Shown here piece by piece: positions 47,580 through 56,898 of a DNA stretch of 64,000 bases. The notes under the pieces are model-generated. The model saw only the letters and a list, made by a program, of their open reading frames with translations, searched no databases and was not told the DNA's origin. Positions within the stretch are counted from its first letter, which is position 1; each line of letters starts with the position of its first letter. The DNA is from an uncultured Flavobacteriaceae bacterium. Lineage in GTDB: Bacteria > Bacteroidota > Bacteroidia > Flavobacteriales > Flavobacteriaceae. The DNA is taken from NCBI GenBank assembly GCA_938020445.1, contig CALIIC010000023.1:1-64000 (forward strand), written 5' to 3'. The translations under genes and the position numbers were made by a program.

Positions 47580-48632
47580 ATGAATTTCTTAAAACAAGCA
47601 GCCCTTCTGTTGGTAAGCCTTGCCCTGTTTAATTGCGGGGATATGGACCGAAAAAAGGCCAAACTCTTTGATATAAAAATTGACAGCAAGGTCGTGCAAC
47701 AAGATGCAGAAGTTGCCGTATCTATCAAAAACCCGGAAAGTAAAAGCATTACCAATGTGCGTTATTCAATAGATGGGGAGACGGTTCCTCTTTCCGATGG
47801 TAAAATAAAACTAAGCATCCAAAAGCTGGGCAACAAAACCTTGCAGGCAGAGGTGTCGTATGATGACACTTCTGTACTAGTAACAACCGCTATTCGCGTA
47901 TTGGCTCCAAAGGCCCCGGAAGTATATACCTATGAAATCTTAAACGAATACCCGCATGACAATAGGGCCTATACACAAGGTCTTGAATTTCATGATGGGG
48001 TACTCTATGAGAGTACGGGTAAAAAAGACCGATCATCATTGCGCAAAACCAATTTCGAAACGGGAGAAGTACTGCAACAAGTTGACATGGATGGTACCGT
48101 GTTCGGAGAAGGAATTACCATTTTCAATGAGAAAATATTTATGCTCACTTGGCAAAGCAGAACAGGGTTTATCTACAATTTAAGCGACCTGAGCAAATTG
48201 GATAATTTTCAATATGGTGAAAGTAAAGAGGGATGGGGCCTAACTAATGATGGCCAGCGATTGATCAAGAGCGATGGGACTGAAAAAATTTGGTTTTTAA
48301 ACCCTGAAACTTTGATTGAGGAAGGTTTTATACAAACGGTGACCAATAAATCGGTTTTTAGCAAGGCCAATGAACTGGAATACGTTGATGGTAAAATTTA
48401 TGCGAATGTGTATCAACGTTCGGGAGTAATGATCATAGATGCCATCAGCGGCGCTATTGAAGGAGTCGTAAATTTCGGGGGAATCGATAAAAAAGTGACC
48501 AAACACGAAGGGTGGAGTGCCACGGAGAATGTGCTCAATGGCATAGCTTATCATCCCGAACGAAAAACATTTTTCGTAACCGGGAAGGATTGGGACAAAA
48601 TGTTCGAAGTGAACATTCTTAAAAAACAATAA
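47580..48632 (+). CDS. Glutaminyl-peptide cyclotransferase (plant/bacterial beta-propeller type)
   Basis: 350 residues. Lipobox ALFNCGD predicts a lipoprotein. After a small beta domain (about 30-105) comes the five-bladed propeller: YTQGLEFHDGVLYESTG, VFGEGITIFNEKIFMLTWQ, GWGLTNDGQRLI, ELEYVDGKIYANVYQ and LNGIAYHPERKTFFVTGK. Forms N-terminal pyroglutamate on exported proteins. Its stop shares a base with the next start. Confidence 0.92.
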   Translation: MNFLKQAALLLVSLALFNCGDMDRKKAKLFDIKIDSKVVQQDAEVAVSIKNPESKSITNVRYSIDGETVPLSDGKIKLSIQKLGNKTLQAEVSYDDTSVLVTTAIRVLAPKAPEVYTYEILNEYPHDNRAYTQGLEFHDGVLYESTGKKDRSSLRKTNFETGEVLQQVDMDGTVFGEGITIFNEKIFMLTWQSRTGFIYNLSDLSKLDNFQYGESKEGWGLTNDGQRLIKSDGTEKIWFLNPETLIEEGFIQTVTNKSVFSKANELEYVDGKIYANVYQRSGVMIIDAISGAIEGVVNFGGIDKKVTKHEGWSATENVLNGIAYHPERKTFFVTGKDWDKMFEVNILKKQ

Positions 48633-49027
48633 TGGCCAACTTTGAAAAGCAGCTTGTTGTTGCAGAAGCTGACCTCGATGATCTTGATCATGTCAACAAT
48701 GTTCGTTATGTACAGTGGATTCAGGATATTTCAAAAGAACATTGGCAAGCTTTAGCCTCTGAAGCGCTACAAAAACAAGTAGCTTGGGTGGTAATGCATC
48801 ATGACATCACCTATAAGAGTGCAGCGAAACTAAACGATCTAATTGCTATCAAAACCTATATAGATGGCAGTAGGGGCGCCACCTCGGTTCGGGTCGTGGA
48901 AATATACAATGATAAAACAAAAACACTCTTGGTGCGTTCAATTACCGAGTGGTGTTTATTAAACGCTATTACCTTTAGGCCCATGCGTATTTCGGACGAA
49001 ATTGCTAGAATTTTTCAAAAGGCCTAA
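48632..49027 (+). CDS. Acyl-CoA thioesterase, 4HBT hotdog fold
   Basis: 131 residues; DLDDLDHVNNVRYVQWIQDIS is the 4-hydroxybenzoyl-CoA thioesterase motif with the catalytic Asp followed by HVNN. No signal peptide. Substrate unknown. Coupled by 1-base overlap to the glutaminyl cyclase gene and directly abutting the following lipoprotein gene. Confidence 0.88.
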   Translation: MANFEKQLVVAEADLDDLDHVNNVRYVQWIQDISKEHWQALASEALQKQVAWVVMHHDITYKSAAKLNDLIAIKTYIDGSRGATSVRVVEIYNDKTKTLLVRSITEWCLLNAITFRPMRISDEIARIFQKA

Positions 49028-50614
49028 ATGGTGTTTTACCAAAAAAGAATGCGAAACGTGGGAATAAAAATACCTTCTTATTGCTACATACTATTGGTCT
49101 CAAGCCTTTTAGTGCTCTGGAGTTCCTGTAGAAAAGACTTTGACTTCGAACCTGCATCGGGAAACTTGGCCTTCTCTAAAGACACCGTTTTTCTCGACAC
49201 TATTTTTTCGAATATAGGAAGTAGTACGTATGCTTTAAAAGTATATAATACAACAAGCACTGACATTGCCATTCCCAGCATACGACTGCGCGAGGGCACT
49301 GCCAGTGGGTATAGACTGAATGTAGATGGCGATGCCGGAAAAGAATTTTCGAATGTAGAACTGCTTGCAAAAGACAGCCTTTTTATATTTGTAGAGACCA
49401 CCCTTAATATTTCCGATACCGGAGACGCCTCCTTCCTGTATACCGATGCCATACAGTTTAATAGTGGAGACAACCTACAAGAAGTGCAATTGGTTACCCT
49501 GGTACAGGATGCCGTTTTTATTTTTCCACCGACCAACGCTAGTGGTGAAAAAGAGACCTTGTTATTGGGGTTGGATGCCGATGGTGCCGAGATACGGGTA
49601 GAAGGGATTACGCTCAAAAACGACCAGCTGAATTTCACCAATGAAAAACCGTATGTGATCTATGGCTATGCGGCGGTTCCCGAAAATGCCACGTTGACAA
49701 TGGCTCCGGGAACAAGGGTATATTTTCATGAAAATTCGGGTATTTGGGTGCAAGAAGGCGCGAGCCTATCGGTAAACGGGGCACTTAGCGAAGACCCCCT
49801 AGCCTTGGAAAACGAAATCATATTTGAAGGGGATCGCCTAGAACCTGAGTTTGATGATATCCCCGGACAATGGGGCACCATATGGTTATCAGAAGGTAGT
49901 ACAAACAATCAAGTGAACCACCTTACTATAAAGAATGCTGCCATCGGCATATTGGTCGAGGGCATCTCGGATCCAGCATCCCCTACCCTAACCATTTCCA
50001 ATTCACAAATCTACAACTCCGCTAGCGTGAACCTGTGGGCAAGAACAGCTGCGGTAGAAGGCAGCAACCTTGTTCTCGGGAATGCTGGGGCCATCTCCCT
50101 GTATTGCAATCTTGGCGGCAACTACACGTTTACCCATGCCACCATCGCCAACTACTGGTCAAAAAGTTTCCGCGGTGGGGAGGCGTTGCGCATCGATAAT
50201 GTGGTTGATTTTCAAAATGGTCAAATACTAACCGGTAATCTTACCAAAGCAGATTTCACCAATTCCATCATTGATGGGAATAGCTTTATAGAGCTCGCAT
50301 TGATCAGTAACAATAGCAATGATTTTTCCTTTTCATTTACCAATTGCCTTATTCAATTCAACGATGCAGCCGGAACGCTCGATGACGACCCGCTCTATGA
50401 TTTTGAGAATAGTACTTTTTATAATAATATTTTTATCAATGAAAACACTGATTTTATTGATACTTCTGAAAACGTCTTCCAAATAGGCGAAAGTTCCGCG
50501 GCAAGGTCAAATGCCCAGCAAGCTGCTGCGGAATTGGTGCCAACCGATATTCTAGGAATTGATAGAACCACAGATCCCGCAGTGGGAGCCTACCAATACG
50601 CACCAGACAATTAA
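49028..50614 (+). CDS. Right-handed beta-helix lipoprotein, hypothetical
   Basis: 528 residues from the first ATG; an ATG at 49049 after an A-rich stretch fits a lipoprotein signal (lipobox WSSCRK) equally well. An N-terminal Ig-like region (about 40-170, DIAIPSIRLREGTASGYRL) leads into parallel beta-helix coils (about 190-500: LTMAPGTRVYFHENSGI, NHLTIKNAAIGILVEG, ATIANYWSKSF). The fold is common in carbohydrate lyases and surface proteins, but no catalytic residues can be named. Third in a coupled three-gene unit. Confidence 0.8.
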   Translation: MVFYQKRMRNVGIKIPSYCYILLVSSLLVLWSSCRKDFDFEPASGNLAFSKDTVFLDTIFSNIGSSTYALKVYNTTSTDIAIPSIRLREGTASGYRLNVDGDAGKEFSNVELLAKDSLFIFVETTLNISDTGDASFLYTDAIQFNSGDNLQEVQLVTLVQDAVFIFPPTNASGEKETLLLGLDADGAEIRVEGITLKNDQLNFTNEKPYVIYGYAAVPENATLTMAPGTRVYFHENSGIWVQEGASLSVNGALSEDPLALENEIIFEGDRLEPEFDDIPGQWGTIWLSEGSTNNQVNHLTIKNAAIGILVEGISDPASPTLTISNSQIYNSASVNLWARTAAVEGSNLVLGNAGAISLYCNLGGNYTFTHATIANYWSKSFRGGEALRIDNVVDFQNGQILTGNLTKADFTNSIIDGNSFIELALISNNSNDFSFSFTNCLIQFNDAAGTLDDDPLYDFENSTFYNNIFINENTDFIDTSENVFQIGESSAARSNAQQAAAELVPTDILGIDRTTDPAVGAYQYAPDN

Positions 50615-50784
50615 GTACTACTTCTAAAACTTAAGAAAGGCTTGCTTTGGATGCCACCGCTCTTATCACCAATCATCATTTTTTTAAACTCCAAAACGGA
50701 CCGCTGGTTTTTAGCAAATGTTAAAAATCGTTAAAATGAGAGTATTTTCCTTCAAAACTGCTTGTTTTCAGTGTTTTACCAAAA

Positions 50785-50844
50785 AAAACCATAGTTTTTA
50801 TAAGGTAAATCTATAGTCCAGTCTCGACCACTATCGCTAATTTG
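50785..50844 (+). promoter_or_regulatory. Promoter of the LytTR gene with shared upstream element
   Basis: AAAACC-A-TAGTTTTTATAAGGT (50785-50806) is repeated almost exactly before the 54882 gene. ATAGT occurs twice, 22 bases apart (50791 and 50813), as expected for a dimer on one DNA face. A -7-like TAATTTG follows at 50838 with no -33 TTG, which suits activator dependence. Confidence 0.5.
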
Positions 50845-50866
50845 CGGTATACAAAACTATTCCCCA

Positions 50867-51598
50867 GTGGACTACAAATATCTGATAATCGATTCTGATG
50901 CTACTTCTAAGTTGCAGCTAATGCACTGCTTAGAGGAACATGATGATTTTGATTTTATCGGACTGTCGAAAAACAGCGGGGAAGGGCTCAACGCAATTCT
51001 CAAGTTTACTCCGGACATTGTTTTTATTAATTTAAATGAGCAAGCGCCCGATTATTTTCAAATGATTTCCGAATTGCACCAATACATTCAAGAGTTACCG
51101 ATATTGATAGGTGTCTCAAAAAGCAAAGACCACGCCTACCAAGCCATTAAATGTAATTTCTTTGATTATTGGTTGATGCCCTATAATGAGTTTGACATTC
51201 GCAAGTCGTTGTTGAAACTTAAAAAACAAACACCAAAAGAAGCCGAACCGCAGACCTTATGCTTGCAATCGTATCGAGACTACCATTATGTAGATACCGA
51301 TGATATACTATACCTACAGGCCGATAACAACGCCACCGACTTTGTTATGACCGATGGTTCCCGTATCAACGCCTATAAAACATTGAAGACCTTTGAACAA
51401 CAATTGCCGAACAATTTCGTTAGAGTACATCAGAGTTACATATTGAATACAAAATATGTAGCGCGTATCAACTACGGTAAAGCGATCTGCAGTTTAAAGG
51501 GGCAAAAGCTACAGCTGCCCTTCTCCAAAACATATAAGGAGAATGTAGACGGACTCAAAAAAATATTATCAAAAAACACCATTTCTGCCATGAATTAA
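50867..51598 (+). CDS. LytTR-family regulator with degenerate receiver domain
   Basis: 243 residues from a GTG. The receiver fold is clear, but the phospho-acceptor position is Asn (PDIVFINLNE, N55) and the conserved Lys before Pro is Met (YWLMPY), so it is unlikely to be phosphorylated in the normal way. The C-terminal LytTR domain is intact (about 140-240: ILYLQADNNATDFVMTDGS, FVRVHQSYILN). It is the first gene of a signalling cluster with a small lipoprotein, a histidine kinase and a NarL-type regulator. Confidence 0.88.
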   Translation: MDYKYLIIDSDATSKLQLMHCLEEHDDFDFIGLSKNSGEGLNAILKFTPDIVFINLNEQAPDYFQMISELHQYIQELPILIGVSKSKDHAYQAIKCNFFDYWLMPYNEFDIRKSLLKLKKQTPKEAEPQTLCLQSYRDYHYVDTDDILYLQADNNATDFVMTDGSRINAYKTLKTFEQQLPNNFVRVHQSYILNTKYVARINYGKAICSLKGQKLQLPFSKTYKENVDGLKKILSKNTISAMN

Positions 51599-51637
51599 CA
51601 AAATTCTAACAGAAAATGGTAGAATACTCGCAAAAGC

Positions 51638-51699
51638 ACCTAGTTTACCAGAACATTTTTGAGAGGGTTGTTCCCCCGCGCCCTCTCATACTACTTTAG
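51638..51699 (+). promoter_or_regulatory. Promoter region of the small lipoprotein gene
   Basis: ACCTAGTTT (51638-51646) matches the element before 50867 and 54882. A GC-rich inverted repeat GAGAGGG/CCCTCTC (51661-51687) follows, then TACTTTAG (51692-51699), one mismatch from the -7 consensus, 54 bases from the element (49-50 in the other two). Confidence 0.4.
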
Positions 51700-51740
51700 C
51701 ACTGAAACTAATATGAACCCCCCGACTAAACGGATTAATC

Positions 51741-51902
51741 ATGAAAAAGGTAGTAGCAATTTTAGCAGTAGTAGTAGTAAGTGTAGGATTTTATTCTTGT
51801 GAAAAAGACAACAGCGTCGAAGATACACAGGCGTTGTATGAAACATTGGAGACCTCAGCCTCAGACACTCATGAAGGTGATGGTAGCCGAGGAGGAAACT
51901 AA
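51741..51902 (+). CDS. Small lipoprotein (53 residues)
   Basis: ATG 51741, TAA at 51900. Basic start MKK, a hydrophobic stretch rich in Val, and lipobox GFYSC (Cys 20) predict an SpII-processed lipoprotein with a 34-residue acidic mature part ending in GDGSRGGN. It has its own promoter-like region and a strong terminator (51934), so it is a separate short transcript, likely abundant. It is placed between the LytTR regulator and the histidine kinase. No family recognised; a sensory or signalling partner of the kinase is an inference. Confidence 0.78.
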   Translation: MKKVVAILAVVVVSVGFYSCEKDNSVEDTQALYETLETSASDTHEGDGSRGGN

Positions 51903-51933
51903 ATAATTCCCAAAAATTGCATTCGATAGAAAG

Positions 51934-51964
51934 CCTCAAATCAAATTGATTTGGGGTTTTTTTT
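51934..51964 (+). terminator. Terminator after the small lipoprotein gene
   Basis: Ten-base arms CCTCAAATCA (51934-51943) and TGATTTGGGG (51947-51956) around a 3-base loop, followed by eight T. The kinase ATG is only 16 bases farther, so the kinase depends on read-through or a promoter within the hairpin region. Confidence 0.88.
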
Positions 51965-51979
51965 CTATCTTGTATTTAA

Positions 51980-54082
51980 ATGAATAAAAGAGACCACCAT
52001 ATACTGTCCATAGTTTTCTTAGCTGTCTTCGTAATTACGGTAAGCTTAGTAAAAGGATGCGTCGATCCAGTTTCCCAAACAAGTGAACTATCATTAAACA
52101 ATGGGAAAAATGATAGTATCCAAAAATGGATTAACTCGTCAAGTAACATCAAACTACCCATTGATAAAAGAGTTGCTTTTCTTGACCGATCCTATCAATT
52201 ATCAAAAAAAATAAAAAATGACTCAATAAGAGTTGGATATCTATCCAAACTCTCCTTAGCGGCTGCAAATCTAAAAGATTCTTTAAAATTCCGAAAAATT
52301 AATAAAGAGACAATTGAACTAGCTCAGTTAATTCAGAAAAAAAACGTGGAGGCTGAAGCCAATTGGGATTTAGCCTTTTTTTTTAAACAAAATGCAATTC
52401 AAGATAGTGCTTATTATCACTATGCAAAAGCATATGACATTTATACTGAATTAAAAAATATAAAAAATGCCGGAAGAGTTTTGCTTAATATTGCAAAAGT
52501 ACAAAAGGATGTAAAAGATTTTGTTGGAAGTGAAAGTAACGCAATTAAGGCTACAGAGGTACTTAAGCCCTTGGATGAATATGATTTGCTATATGAATGT
52601 TATAATCACCTAGGTATCGTTTCCATGGGACTTAAGGAATATGATGTCGCAATAAGAAATTATAACAAAGCTTCGGAATATTCCCAGAAGACAAAAAAAA
52701 ATCGCTATTCCTCGATACAAAATAATATTGGAGTCGTATACCAGGAACAAGGTAAACACTACGAGGCTATGGAAATTTTCAAGAAAATTCTTGAAACTAA
52801 AGAACTTTTCGAAACAAACCCCAAATTTTATGCAATAACATTAGACAATTATGCATTTAATAAGTTTAAAACTGGTAACACTAAAAATGTAGAAAAAGAT
52901 TTGCTAAAAGGCCTAAAACTCATGGACAGTTTAAACTATATTTCAGGAGTAGTAGGAAGCTACTATAGTCTTGCAGAGTATTATTTACAAAAAAAAGATT
53001 CTTCAAAATCATTAAGTGCAGCATTAAAATCAAAAGATTATGCCGAAAAAAGCACCAACAATTATCGTCTTTTACAAGTATTAGGATTATTGGTGCGGCT
53101 TGAACCAGAAAAAGCCGTTAACCATACCCAAACTTACATAAAACTAAACGACAGTTTACAACTGGAAGAACGAAAAATCAGAAACAAATTCGCCCGTATT
53201 CGTTTTGAAACCAACGAAACCTTGGAACAAAACAAGCTTTTGGCACGGCAAAAACAGCTCTGGGTGGGAATTGCCGCTACCTTATTATTATTGGCCTTTT
53301 CGGCCTTTATGATCATTGACCAGCGGGTAAAAAACCAGAAAGTGCGCTTTCAACGCGAGCAACAAGAAAGCAACGAGAAAATCTTCACCCTCCTATTGGC
53401 GCAAAAGCAAAAAGTAGAGGAAGGGAAAAAAATTGCCCAAAAACGGATCTCCGAAGAATTACACGATGGGGTGCAGGGACGAATACAGGGAGTACGTATG
53501 CTTTTATTGGGCTTAAACAAGCGTACAACCCCCGAAGCGATTGAGGAAAGAGGGGAAGCCATCAAAGAATTGATGGATATTCAAGAAGAAGTGCGCGTAA
53601 TTTCCCACGAATTAAGTCATGCTGCTTACCAAAAAATACATAACTTTATCCAAAGTATTGAAGAATTACTACTGGGTGTTAAAAATAGTGCCGCCCTGGA
53701 GTATGCCTTCGAGTACGACGACGAGGTAGATTGGGACGGGCTTAGCAGCGATGTGAAGGTCAACTTGTATCGTATGGTACAGGAGAGCCTACAAAATTGT
53801 GTAAAGCATGCAAAGGCAAGCAAAGTATCCCTGAAATTCGCCGTGGAAAATAGAAATAATCTAAAGGTAGCCCTAGTAGATGATGGCAAAGGTTTTGTTG
53901 TCAAAAAAGGCAAAAAAGGCATTGGCCTTCGCAACATCACCTCGCGGATCGAAAAGATCGGCGGTACGTGGGATATTGAAAGTAGCCCAGGTAAAGGCAC
54001 CAAGGTTTATTTCAATATTCCGATTCAGTCGTTAGCGCAACCAGAAACAGCATATCAGGAAACAGCACTGCAAGAAGTATAG
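51980..54082 (+). CDS. TPR sensor histidine kinase, HisKA_3 (NarX/LiaS-like) type
   Basis: 700 residues. N-terminal hydrophobic segment with a possible lipobox-like LVKGC, a periplasmic TPR array (about 60-390: NNIGVVYQEQGKHYEAMEIF, GSYYSLAEYYLQKKDSSKSL), one membrane segment about 428-448, a coiled linker, then HisKA_3 with RISEELHDGVQGRIQG (His about 494) and HATPase (NCVKHAKASKVSL, DDGKGF, GIGLRNI). Partner: the NarL-like regulator 6 bases downstream. The first part is more AT-rich than the kinase half. Confidence 0.9.
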   Translation: MNKRDHHILSIVFLAVFVITVSLVKGCVDPVSQTSELSLNNGKNDSIQKWINSSSNIKLPIDKRVAFLDRSYQLSKKIKNDSIRVGYLSKLSLAAANLKDSLKFRKINKETIELAQLIQKKNVEAEANWDLAFFFKQNAIQDSAYYHYAKAYDIYTELKNIKNAGRVLLNIAKVQKDVKDFVGSESNAIKATEVLKPLDEYDLLYECYNHLGIVSMGLKEYDVAIRNYNKASEYSQKTKKNRYSSIQNNIGVVYQEQGKHYEAMEIFKKILETKELFETNPKFYAITLDNYAFNKFKTGNTKNVEKDLLKGLKLMDSLNYISGVVGSYYSLAEYYLQKKDSSKSLSAALKSKDYAEKSTNNYRLLQVLGLLVRLEPEKAVNHTQTYIKLNDSLQLEERKIRNKFARIRFETNETLEQNKLLARQKQLWVGIAATLLLLAFSAFMIIDQRVKNQKVRFQREQQESNEKIFTLLLAQKQKVEEGKKIAQKRISEELHDGVQGRIQGVRMLLLGLNKRTTPEAIEERGEAIKELMDIQEEVRVISHELSHAAYQKIHNFIQSIEELLLGVKNSAALEYAFEYDDEVDWDGLSSDVKVNLYRMVQESLQNCVKHAKASKVSLKFAVENRNNLKVALVDDGKGFVVKKGKKGIGLRNITSRIEKIGGTWDIESSPGKGTKVYFNIPIQSLAQPETAYQETALQEV

Positions 54083-54088
54083 TTTATA

Positions 54089-54760
54089 ATGGATAAAGTA
54101 ATTACAATTTTAGCGGTAGACGATCATAAAATGACCGCGCTCGGTTATAAATATATTTTAGAGGATGCCGTATTCGAAGATTTTAAAGTACGTGTAGAGA
54201 TTGGCAACGGCTATGACGAAGGGCAAAAAAAAATCGAAGCTTCTGCCAAAGGGATCCGGTATGATATTATACTTTTGGACATTCAATTGTTTCCTGCAGA
54301 AGCAAAAGACCCCCGAACGGGCCAAGACCTCGGAAAGCTCGCCCGCCAAGTTGTTCCCGAGAGCAAAGTGGTATTTATGTCCTCTTTCAGCGATAGTTAT
54401 CGTATCAACAGTATTTGCCAGGCAGTGAACCCCGATGGCTATCTCGTAAAGTCGGAAATCGACGAGCTTTCGTTGATCGATATGGTGAAAACAGTCATCA
54501 CCAAACCACCTTATTACACACATCTTGCTTTGGTCGCTGCGCGAAAGAATATCGCACAGACCTTTAAGGTAGATGAATATGATCAGGCCATTCTCTATGA
54601 ACTTTCCATAGGCACTAGAACTAAGGACATTACATCGGTACTTCCCCTTTCCCAAGCCACGATCGACAATAGGAAACGTGCCCTAAAACTTATCTTTGGA
54701 GTACAAGATAAAAGTGACCTTGCGCTTATCGAAGAAGCGAGAAATCGAGGATTCATATAA
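54089..54760 (+). CDS. NarL/LuxR-type response regulator
   Basis: 223 residues. Intact receiver: acidic pair in LAVDDH, phospho-acceptor Asp in IILLDIQL, Ser in FMSSFS and Lys in YLVKSEI. The receiver has an insertion after the phospho-Asp (PAEAKDPRTGQDL). C-terminal HTH (about 165-223: DQAILYELSIGTRTKDITSV, SQATIDNRKRALK) resembles LuxR-type. Cognate to the kinase at 51980 by adjacency and type. It may drive the shared promoter element nearby, which is inference. Confidence 0.9.
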   Translation: MDKVITILAVDDHKMTALGYKYILEDAVFEDFKVRVEIGNGYDEGQKKIEASAKGIRYDIILLDIQLFPAEAKDPRTGQDLGKLARQVVPESKVVFMSSFSDSYRINSICQAVNPDGYLVKSEIDELSLIDMVKTVITKPPYYTHLALVAARKNIAQTFKVDEYDQAILYELSIGTRTKDITSVLPLSQATIDNRKRALKLIFGVQDKSDLALIEEARNRGFI

Positions 54761-54790
54761 AAAAGCCGTTGAAATGCATTCCTAAAGAGA

Positions 54791-54850
54791 AAAACCTAGT
54801 TTTTATAAGGTTTTTGTATAATGCGCGACCGCTTATTACAGCTATTTTTG
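54791..54850 (+). promoter_or_regulatory. Promoter of the 54882 gene with shared upstream element
   Basis: AAAACCTAGTTT plus TTATAAGGT (54791-54812) matches the element at 50785-50806. CGACC then recurs in both about 15-20 bases downstream, and TATTTTTG (54843-54850), an exact -7 box, lies 49 bases from the start of ACCTAGTTT. No TTG at -33. Confidence 0.5.
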
Positions 54851-54881
54851 TGTACAAGCCAAACAAATTACATGCTGTGAT

Positions 54882-55559
54882 ATGTCACTACACTTAGAAA
54901 ATTTTAAAAACCAACCCCCTATTGCTATCATAAACGATACCGATATAGAGGGTATTTCTTATTTCAAGAAAAGCCTTGAGCGGCTTTTTTTCTCAAAAGT
55001 GGTCATACGTAATAGTGCCACGAACAACGAGATGGTTAAACTGGTCATCGAAGTTTCCTGCAATTTCGATATCGCAGATGCGCTGTCGAACCTAGATCAA
55101 GGCATTTGGGCGCAGTACCGTAAAAATGTAGATGATTCTTTTAACACATCTATCTTTCATAATTTGGTAGATCGCTTAAAAGGGTTGAACAATTTTGATA
55201 TTGATGTGGTAGAATTTTCCATTCTTTTCAATAATTGCAATATCATCATCAATAAGATATATGAACATAGCATTCCTGAACAGCTAGATGCTATTTTGAC
55301 GAAACTATCCCTTCATTATACGCACTTAAGCAAAAGCACAAGGGAAACGCCCTTTGAAATTTTCATCCCAATTTTTGAGGAAGAAAAAATGGCGACAAAT
55401 GAAGAACCACTTGTAGCGAGCCTGCCAGCGGCAAACTATAAGAAAAGAGATTACTTCAAATATTGGGGGCTATACTTCTATTCTGAAGAAGATGCACTCA
55501 TTTATACTTTAAAGGACAAGGCAGTTATCTCGGGCGACCTGCATATGCTTAACGATTAA
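54882..55559 (+). CDS. Hypothetical protein of the signalling cluster
   Basis: 225 residues, soluble, no signal peptide or membrane segment. Mixed alpha/beta; the start NQPPIAIINDTDIEGISYFKK and middle FNNCNIIINKIYEHSIPEQL give no recognised family, and the C-terminal YWGLYFYSEEDALIYTLKDK suggests a compact domain. Its promoter shares an element with the LytTR gene at 50867, so it belongs to the same regulon. Function unknown. Confidence 0.7.
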   Translation: MSLHLENFKNQPPIAIINDTDIEGISYFKKSLERLFFSKVVIRNSATNNEMVKLVIEVSCNFDIADALSNLDQGIWAQYRKNVDDSFNTSIFHNLVDRLKGLNNFDIDVVEFSILFNNCNIIINKIYEHSIPEQLDAILTKLSLHYTHLSKSTRETPFEIFIPIFEEEKMATNEEPLVASLPAANYKKRDYFKYWGLYFYSEEDALIYTLKDKAVISGDLHMLND

Positions 55560-55575
55560 ATAGAAAAAAAGATAC

Positions 55576-55625
55576 GCTCATACTAACATATTCATTGAAT
55601 GAATTATGTAGTATGAGCTTTTTTT
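55576..55625. terminator. Bidirectional terminator between the 54882 gene and glyA
   Basis: Long inverted repeat with outer arms GCTCATACT and AGTATGAGC and inner ATTCATT/GAATGAAT pairing, followed by T on both strands. Confidence 0.85.
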
Positions 55626-56898
55626 ATGAATTGAATAGCAACTTCCCTTGCATTAAGGCGTTTACTTCAGTCTTTACACCTGCAATAACCGCTTCATCTT
55701 CAGCATTCGTTAATACCCGATCTACCAAATCTACAATTGTGGCCATATCGGCTTCCTTTAGTCCCCGTGTTGTTATTGCGGGTGTTCCAAAACGGATACC
55801 GGATGTTACAAAAGGTGACTTATCATCAAAAGGAACCATGTTCTTATTCGCGGTAATATCAGCTTTTACCAGTGCCGCCTCTGCAGCTTTCCCAGAAATG
55901 TCCTTATTGCGCAAATCGATCAGCATCATGTGATTGTCGGTACCGCCAGAAATGATATGATACTCTTTCGCCACGAAAGCCGCAGCCATAGCAGCCGCAT
56001 TTTTCTTCACTTGTAACATATAATGTAAGAAATCATCGGAAAGTGCCTCTCCGAAAGCAATCGCTTTCGCTGCGATAATATGCTCCAAAGGCCCTCCTTG
56101 GTTCCCTGGAAAAACGGCCAGATTCAACAAGGCGGACATTTTGCGAAGATTCCCATTTTTAAGCTTGATACCAAAAGGATTATCAAAATCCTCCCCCATT
56201 AAGATGAGTCCGCCCCTTGGTCCTCTCAAGGTTTTGTGAGTGGTGGTCGTAACAATATGGCAATGTGGTATGGGATCGTTCAAAATTCCTTTCGCAATAA
56301 GACCGGCAGGGTGCGAAATATCGGCAAGCAACAAAGCACCTACACTATCTGCAATCTCGCGGAATCTTTTAAAATCCATATCACGGGAATAGGCCGATGC
56401 CCCCGCGATGATCATTTTTGGTTTTTCACGCGCAGCGATTTCCGCAATGGTATCATAATTCAATACACCTGTCTCCTCCTCTACCCCGTAAAAAACAGGA
56501 TTGTACAAACGTCCCGAAAAGTTCACAGGGGATCCATGTGTAAGATGACCGCCATGCGATAGATCAAACCCTAAAATAGTATCGCCCGGTTGCAAACAAG
56601 CATGGTATACCGAAGCATTCGCTTGAGACCCCGAATGTGGCTGCACATTGGCATAGGCCGCTCCGAATAACTCCTTGGCGCGATCGATGGCAATCTGCTC
56701 TACCTCGTCTACAATCTCACAACCTCCATAATACCTTTTTCCAGGATAGCCTTCGGCATATTTGTTCGTTAAAACAGATCCTGCCGCTTCCATTACTTGC
56801 GGACTCGTAAAGTTTTCAGAAGCAATAAGTTCTATACCATTTGTTTGGCGCTCCTCTTCGGCAGCTATAAGGTCAAAAATCAGATTGTCGCGTTGCAT
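55624..56898 (-). CDS. glyA: Serine hydroxymethyltransferase
   Basis: 424 residues from the ATG at 56898 ([18 protein letters not shown]); the frame extends to 56994 but those 32 residues span the promoter. PLP enzyme converting serine and THF to glycine and methylene-THF. Motifs: [41 protein letters not shown], the PLP-lysine loop [14 protein letters not shown] and FPGNQGGP. Divergent from fahA. Confidence 0.96.

Follow-up and report, generated by a model that had tools for sequence, protein, structure and literature searches.

The DNA between positions 50,785 and 55,559 of the window (the whole analysed stretch of 64,000 nucleotides, from an uncultured Flavobacteriaceae bacterium) can be read, with reasonable probability, as a peptide-signal circuit with agr-like logic, in which a putative peptide precursor and its receptor are encoded side by side. 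An earlier note on this DNA had proposed a local signaling circuit here, and the comparison of related loci supports that proposal. The features of the cluster are as follows:

50785–50809, + strand: candidate operator 1, an inverted repeat around ACC-N13-GGT (core 50788–50806), before lytTR
50838–50844, + strand: −7-like box TAATTTG of lytTR, 32 bp past the GG of operator 1
50867–51598, + strand: lytTR regulator gene (receiver without the phosphate-accepting Asp, LytTR DNA-binding domain)
51602–51657, + strand: three direct repeats, spaced 21 bp and starting at 51602, 51623, and 51644, ahead of the precursor gene (candidate LytTR sites)
51692–51699, + strand: −7-like box TACTTTAG of the precursor gene
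51741–51902, + strand: gene for the putative lipoprotein-type precursor (53 aa, variable C-terminal peptide)
51928–51962, + strand: terminator-like hairpin between the precursor and kinase genes
51980–54082, + strand: TPR histidine kinase gene (variable sensor at residues ∼30–420, hydrophobic segment ∼426–448, kinase core 476–690)
54089–54760, + strand: NarL-type response regulator gene (receiver site intact)
54791–54814, + strand: candidate operator 2, an inverted repeat around ACC-N12-GGT (core 54794–54811), before the 54882 gene
54843–54850, + strand: −7-like box TATTTTTG of the 54882 gene, 32 bp past the GG of operator 2
54882–55559, + strand: the 54882 gene (225-aa protein without a family match), whose promoter is the only other one with the inverted repeat

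The gene order is lytTR (50867), the 53-aa lipoprotein (51741), the TPR histidine kinase (51980), the NarL-type regulator (54089), and the 225-aa protein (54882), flanked by a thioesterase/528-aa pair on one side and glyA on the other. The earlier note proposed looking for this order in relatives, and comparison shows that it is widely kept: the run from lytTR through the lipoprotein, kinase, NarL-type, and 54882 genes to glyA is present in 11 of the 12 loci from genomes matching the 54882 protein (the twelfth ends at a contig end), and lytTR, kinase, and NarL-type genes occur together in 70 of 80 loci, these being the best 80 of 166 named related loci. Most of the ten loci without the full trio end at a contig end; another, L158, holds a NarL-type paralogue, and no other cluster gene was found at that locus. 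The genome G005, from the same isolate as L158, has three NarL-type matches, of which L158 shows one. Across the family sample, the NarL-type protein is matched (E up to 1e-50) in 32 of 199 genomes. The thioesterase gene and the gene for the 528-aa protein, which has no family match (window 48632–50614), precede the cluster in most related loci. Eight terminator-like hairpins occur in the region; shuffled sequences have 4.7 on average.

The small lipoprotein, a predicted secreted product, is the putative precursor of a hypervariable and often repeated C-terminal peptide, a property missed by the earlier note. By our own rule (as opposed to a signal-peptide program), a short precursor-like ORF with a basic start and then a hydrophobic run is found in the window and at all 69 loci examined, and the tail is hypervariable among these 70 sequences. 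Tandem C-terminal units, up to ten, were recognized by eye in about 20 of the 70, including a 28-aa unit with DGDKIPKDRRDPPP in seven copies (L115) and about ten 14-aa units (L150); such units are near-identical inside one precursor and different between species. A lipoprotein-type Cys occurs in many precursors and is missing in many of those from Maribacter and Arenibacter. The model of the PG1828 family lipoprotein (NF050142) scored 26.3 bits on the precursor, below its cut-off of 50 and over residues 1–32 only, and assignment to NVEALA was rejected, with no such Pfam match among five precursors and no paper found. Among the scanned cluster proteins we identified no AgrB-like processing protease, exporter, or modifying enzyme.

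These properties also bear on a cell-internal reading, which we consider unlikely, in which the lipoprotein would be an accessory subunit on the TPR sensor in the same envelope, reporting envelope state or its own lipid sorting, with nothing passing between cells. The Cys of many precursors and the absence of an identified exporter in the cluster fit such a ligand, which would likewise give the co-variation of peptide and sensor described below. However, the many Maribacter and Arenibacter precursors without the Cys count against it, and both the tandem near-identical units and the exchange of types between close genomes fit selection on cell-to-cell signaling more easily.

The kinase has HATPase_c (42.2 bits, cut-off 26.4) and HisKA_3 (24.2 bits, cut-off 24) domains above the Pfam cut-offs, and its TPR sensor, flanked by two hydrophobic segments, is probably periplasmic. 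RapF is one of many TPR proteins matched by the sensor profile (E 1.6e-7 for RapF), and this match alone says little about peptides. Between the window and loci L087 and L088, the LytTR and NarL-type proteins are 96–99% identical and the kinase core 91–94%, while the sensor is 49–59% identical. Synonymous divergence of the sensor reaches 1.72 (L117/L120), 1.19 (L146/L142), and 1.33 (L141/L153), compared with 0.12–0.44 for the thioesterase, lytTR, narL, and 54882 genes of the same three pairs; for the kinase core it is 0.62 in L117/L120 and 0.15 in L146/L142. In the pair L109/L116 the sensor is not unusually rich in synonymous change. The sensor alignment (A7) comprised 40 of 72 sensors. The diverged block begins inside the precursor and reaches almost to the kinase's membrane segment, with lytTR conserved before it and the kinase core after it. 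A second kinase gene lies behind the first at L120:3688-7961, L141:3653-7979, and L153:4984-7928, with an altered H-box in the second copy of L120 and both copies of L153 split or shortened, which looks like receptor duplication and decay.

The types of peptide and sensor appear to match, a conclusion that is well supported by the Arenibacter sequences. Across 12 Arenibacter genomes, sensor identity drops with peptide-unit distance (r −0.58, 0 of 20,000 permutations), also after removal of the kinase, NarL-type, and 54882 components (partial r −0.61, 0 of 20,000). The identities of the kinase, NarL-type, and 54882 proteins in these genomes do not track this distance (6341, 4296, and 12688 of 20,000 permutations, respectively). 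The units of L137 and L139 derive from precursors truncated at the contig start; in L135 and L142, whose units differ, the first type was used. Comparison of close relatives shows peptide and sensor changing type together: L142 and L146 are 99% identical in kinase, 99.5% in NarL-type regulator, and 97% in 54882 protein, yet their peptides differ and their sensors are 71% identical, while L138 and L142 have a peptide in common and sensors 83% identical. The sensor tree joins L131 with L146 and L138 with L142, and the core tree joins L142 with L146; for clades named after the permutation result was seen, the sensor tree test rejects L142 + L146 (p 8.6e-38) and the core tree tests reject L138 + L142 (p 2.6e-9) and L131 + L146 (p 0.006). 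A cruder test over 65 sequences (of 67 rows) was weak, with a partial r of 0.10 and 48 of 2000 permutations as high.

Because peptide and sensor are adjacent and exchanged as a block, linkage alone could make their types match, and the observed correspondence may be overstated since tail and sensor are physically linked. On a hitch-hiking account, which we regard as very improbable, a stretch prone to recombination, from lytTR to the kinase core, carries unrelated variable parts, and peptide and sensor match only through linkage. That account would explain why tail and sensor adjoin and diverge as one block, and a control offers it a parallel: three TPR kinase pairs from two genomes of the genus, a few loosely and roughly matched pairs whose pairing failed to join L235 with L237, have sensor/kinase identities of 81/90, 69/80, and 23/66%, and the last (L245/L253) is also diverged in the sensor. 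That pair is perhaps a second variable receptor, or no true pair. The limits of the block argue against hitch-hiking, since it runs from the precursor tail almost to the sensor's end, between a conserved lytTR and a conserved kinase core, as do repeat units that are near-identical within a precursor and different between species.

Competition could also generate such diversity. Were the product a bacteriocin-like peptide, the kinase would be a monitor and the 54882 protein an immunity or response factor; hypervariable tails, block exchange, and a conserved 54882 protein under the same operator as lytTR would all be in keeping with peptide antagonism. We think this improbable, given that the 54882 protein does not follow peptide type in Arenibacter (the 12688 of 20,000 above), unlike a cognate immunity protein, and that the cluster genes include no identified exporter or modifying enzyme.

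The regulatory sequences suggest how such signaling may be wired. The earlier note had placed one element, ACC(A)TAGTTT, before lytTR, the lipoprotein gene, and the 54882 gene, and had read it as an activator site at about −45 to −65. At lytTR and the 54882 gene the element is conserved in orthologous promoters and an activator-like site lies at about −45 to −60; the lipoprotein promoter lacks this element. The extended match reported for the first and third genes, TAGTTTTTATAAGGT, is exact at 50792 and 54797, with no third copy in the window at zero or one mismatch, no further exact copy in the organism's own genome, and four copies there at one mismatch. Each copy is followed, 32 bp after its end, by a −7-like box (TAATTTG at 50838 and TATTTTTG at 54843), in agreement with the 49–50 bases given previously from ACC to the box. 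The CGACC described after the element is present, but among relatives only the nearest have it.

In Maribacter, Zobellia, Arenibacter, and Pelagihabitans the element takes the form of an inverted repeat, AAAACC-N13-GGTTTT (N12 before the 54882 gene of the window), and comparison shows both operators and their spacing to be conserved. The distance from GG to the −7 box is 31–32 bp in all 78 sequences at the 54882 gene and in 62 of 67 picked sites at lytTR, with one more at 33. This spacing scan left 3 of 70 lytTR regions without a site (L090, L094, and L132); for L138 and L156 the script chose another place, the aligned regions having the usual site there, and L162 and L164 are without a −7 box by its rule. 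A fixed rule for the inverted repeat, written after sites had been seen, identifies one upstream of lytTR in 46 of 70 sequences (mean 0.18 per shuffled set), and for the 54882 gene the count is 72 of 78 (mean 0.10); the lytTR copy of the window fails this rule because its arms are imperfect. Control upstream regions gave no match for the thioesterase (0/63), 528-aa (0/62), glyA (0/77), and fah (0/51) genes, and matches upstream of the kinase in 4 of 78 and of narL in 2 of 80. Five of these six (L129, L149, L152, L160, and L095) are at genes cut by a contig end, from which we infer that the slices are not true upstream regions; the sixth, L098, stays unexplained by contig ends.

Pairing across the inverted repeat is kept at 77% of cells, and changes on both sides affect 27 cells, compared with 16.6 for shuffles, none of 500 of which scored as high; the alignment of these sites (A4) holds 64 of 103 eligible sites and the two window rows. 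With 150 of 3703 candidates scored, the inverted-repeat model finds just operators 1 and 2 in the organism's own genome at E up to 1. An RNA hairpin or terminator was considered and rejected: many lytTR copies are without a T tail, many arms are mismatched, and the distance to the −7 box is constrained; we therefore favor a site acting in DNA. An Rfam search of 50600–55700 returned no family at its gathering score. The inverted repeats at the two promoters therefore stand as the predicted site of a local regulator. Apparent co-change of CCCC..GGGG sites with the NarL-type helix in two genomes followed only clades over 80 loci and was set aside as weak. The genome G003 has six more weak matches to the inverted-repeat model (L187, L191, L193, L194, L195, and L196; E 0.004 to 0.45), two of them overlapping on opposite strands, and there may be a wider regulon there.

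The precursor promoter is organized differently, and the claim that three transcription units lie under one element does not hold: two carry the inverted repeat, and the lipoprotein gene has 21-bp direct repeats. A shared inverted repeat was rejected at lipoprotein promoters, where the fixed rule matched 0 of 55 (shuffled mean 0.02). The ACCTAGTTT word at 51638, 54 bases from the −7 box (51692), is common to just one of 11 other sequences compared (L045), and words like it (up to one mismatch) are not enriched in the window (14 vs. 17.7 in shuffles); it overlaps the third of the three direct repeats, a different element. Direct-repeat autocorrelation in the lipoprotein promoters (60 non-redundant of 70 regions, minus a few over-long ones) peaks at 21 bp (z 26.8), and AATACTCACAGAA-like repeats recur at 21-bp steps, in most sequences at a fixed distance ahead of the −7 box. 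A sequence model of these repeats (alignment A5, 43 sites and the window) has one strong place in the organism's own genome, the precursor promoter (E 2.6e-11, the next at 0.02); 8 of 10 genomes of the genus have a place at E below 1e-7, with weaker scores at the precursor promoters of G009 (E 0.03) and G007 (E 0.1).

NarL/LuxR proteins bind inverted repeats, and the sites of LytTR proteins are direct repeats spaced by about two helical turns; on symmetry, the NarL-type regulator would pair with the inverted repeat and LytTR with the 21-bp direct repeats. The LytTR domain scores 67.8 bits (Pfam cut-off 22.6), and the receiver of the LytTR protein has lost the Asp in 66 and the Lys in 64 of 68 proteins, while the receiver of the NarL-type protein keeps both its phosphate-accepting Asp and its Lys in all 80. 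The latter protein falls below the cut-offs for GerE (13.7 bits vs. 23.5 in Pfam) and for MctR, its best NCBIfam model (48.3 vs. 300), and is thus named only "NarL-type." LytTR proteins form a large family here: at E up to 0.001, the organism's own genome (G000) yields 31 that match this one, and a genus mate up to 36.

The 54882 protein, the apparent output of the circuit, is matched in 13 of 60 genomes, including all 10 of the genus; the homologue set comprised 73 rows, with L133 and near-duplicates left out. Two structural models had pLDDT values of 66.4 and 80.6, Foldseek gave no match at E up to 0.001, and the best Z in the structural comparison was 5.2, so that no structural match is confident. 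In Zobellia uliginosa, the homologue is split over two frames (L056:3699-4350) or short, at 145 aa (L133 near 9057).

With a degraded LytTR receiver and an intact NarL-type receiver, the simplest circuit runs from the kinase to the NarL-type regulator, from there to lytTR and the 54882 gene, and from LytTR to the precursor. The small lipoprotein would yield a short acidic C-terminal peptide, single or tandem by species, which would be freed in or outside the envelope, travel between cells, and bind the TPR domain of the neighboring kinase. The kinase, we infer, would then phosphorylate the NarL-type regulator, which would switch on lytTR and the 54882 gene by binding the inverted repeat that lies 32 bp ahead of the −7 box. 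LytTR, with a receiver in nearly all relatives unable to take phosphate, would act by amount, bind the 21-bp direct repeats, and switch on the precursor; the hairpin between the precursor and kinase genes may hold precursor level above that of the receptor. The positive loop around a tiny lipoprotein suggested earlier remains plausible, without its single shared element: given an inverted repeat at two promoters and direct repeats at the third, the loop is probably two-step. A peptide of ∼14 residues may not freely cross the outer membrane, which counts against the circuit.

Several known systems resemble parts of this arrangement. In the agr and Com systems of Gram-positive bacteria, a peptide precursor is likewise encoded beside a receptor kinase, a LytTR regulator is part of the loop, and a hypervariable block of peptide and sensor has conserved flanks, with types differing between close relatives. 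The present cluster differs in belonging to Bacteroidota, in having a TPR rather than a multi-helix membrane sensor, in having a LytTR pseudo-receiver behind a NarL-type regulator, and in that no AgrB-like protein was identified in it. The yeast alpha-factor precursor also carries tandem near-identical units behind a secretion signal; here, the system is bacterial and the peptide another. RRNPP systems of Firmicutes (Rap and NprR) combine a TPR domain with a nearby propeptide, but their receptors are intracellular (PMC10075063), whereas here the TPR domain belongs to a membrane kinase with kinase domains and two hydrophobic segments. FimS/FimR of Porphyromonas gingivalis pairs a periplasmic TPR sensor kinase with a response regulator, and the available portions of its descriptions mention no peptide precursor (PMC11053733; PMC5706477); the FimS model (NF053520) scores 29.8 bits on the kinase here, against a curated cut-off of 600. 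One of these sources calls the FimS signal unknown and possibly a polypeptide (PMC11053733). No account of the present cluster was recognized in the literature covered, which consisted of titles and abstract openings, with subscription papers mostly outside it.

Peptide signaling with pherotypes is a theme of Gram-positive bacteria, and numerous TPR kinases in Bacteroidota have no known signal. A wider proposal, which we hold tentatively as quite possible though short of probable, is that Gram-negative Bacteroidota use intercellular peptide pheromones, made from repeated precursors of the alpha-factor kind, perceived by periplasmic TPR receptor kinases, and divided into pherotypes that are exchanged; many TPR kinases of the phylum, perhaps including FimS, would by extension sense peptides. 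The existence of natural type-swapped strains (Arenibacter L142 and L146) makes the question directly testable in cultured marine isolates. If true, such a peptide circuit would be unusual for Gram-negative bacteria such as these marine flavobacteria, and, with a candidate ligand adjoining its receptor in this cluster, it may show what a large class of sensors detects.
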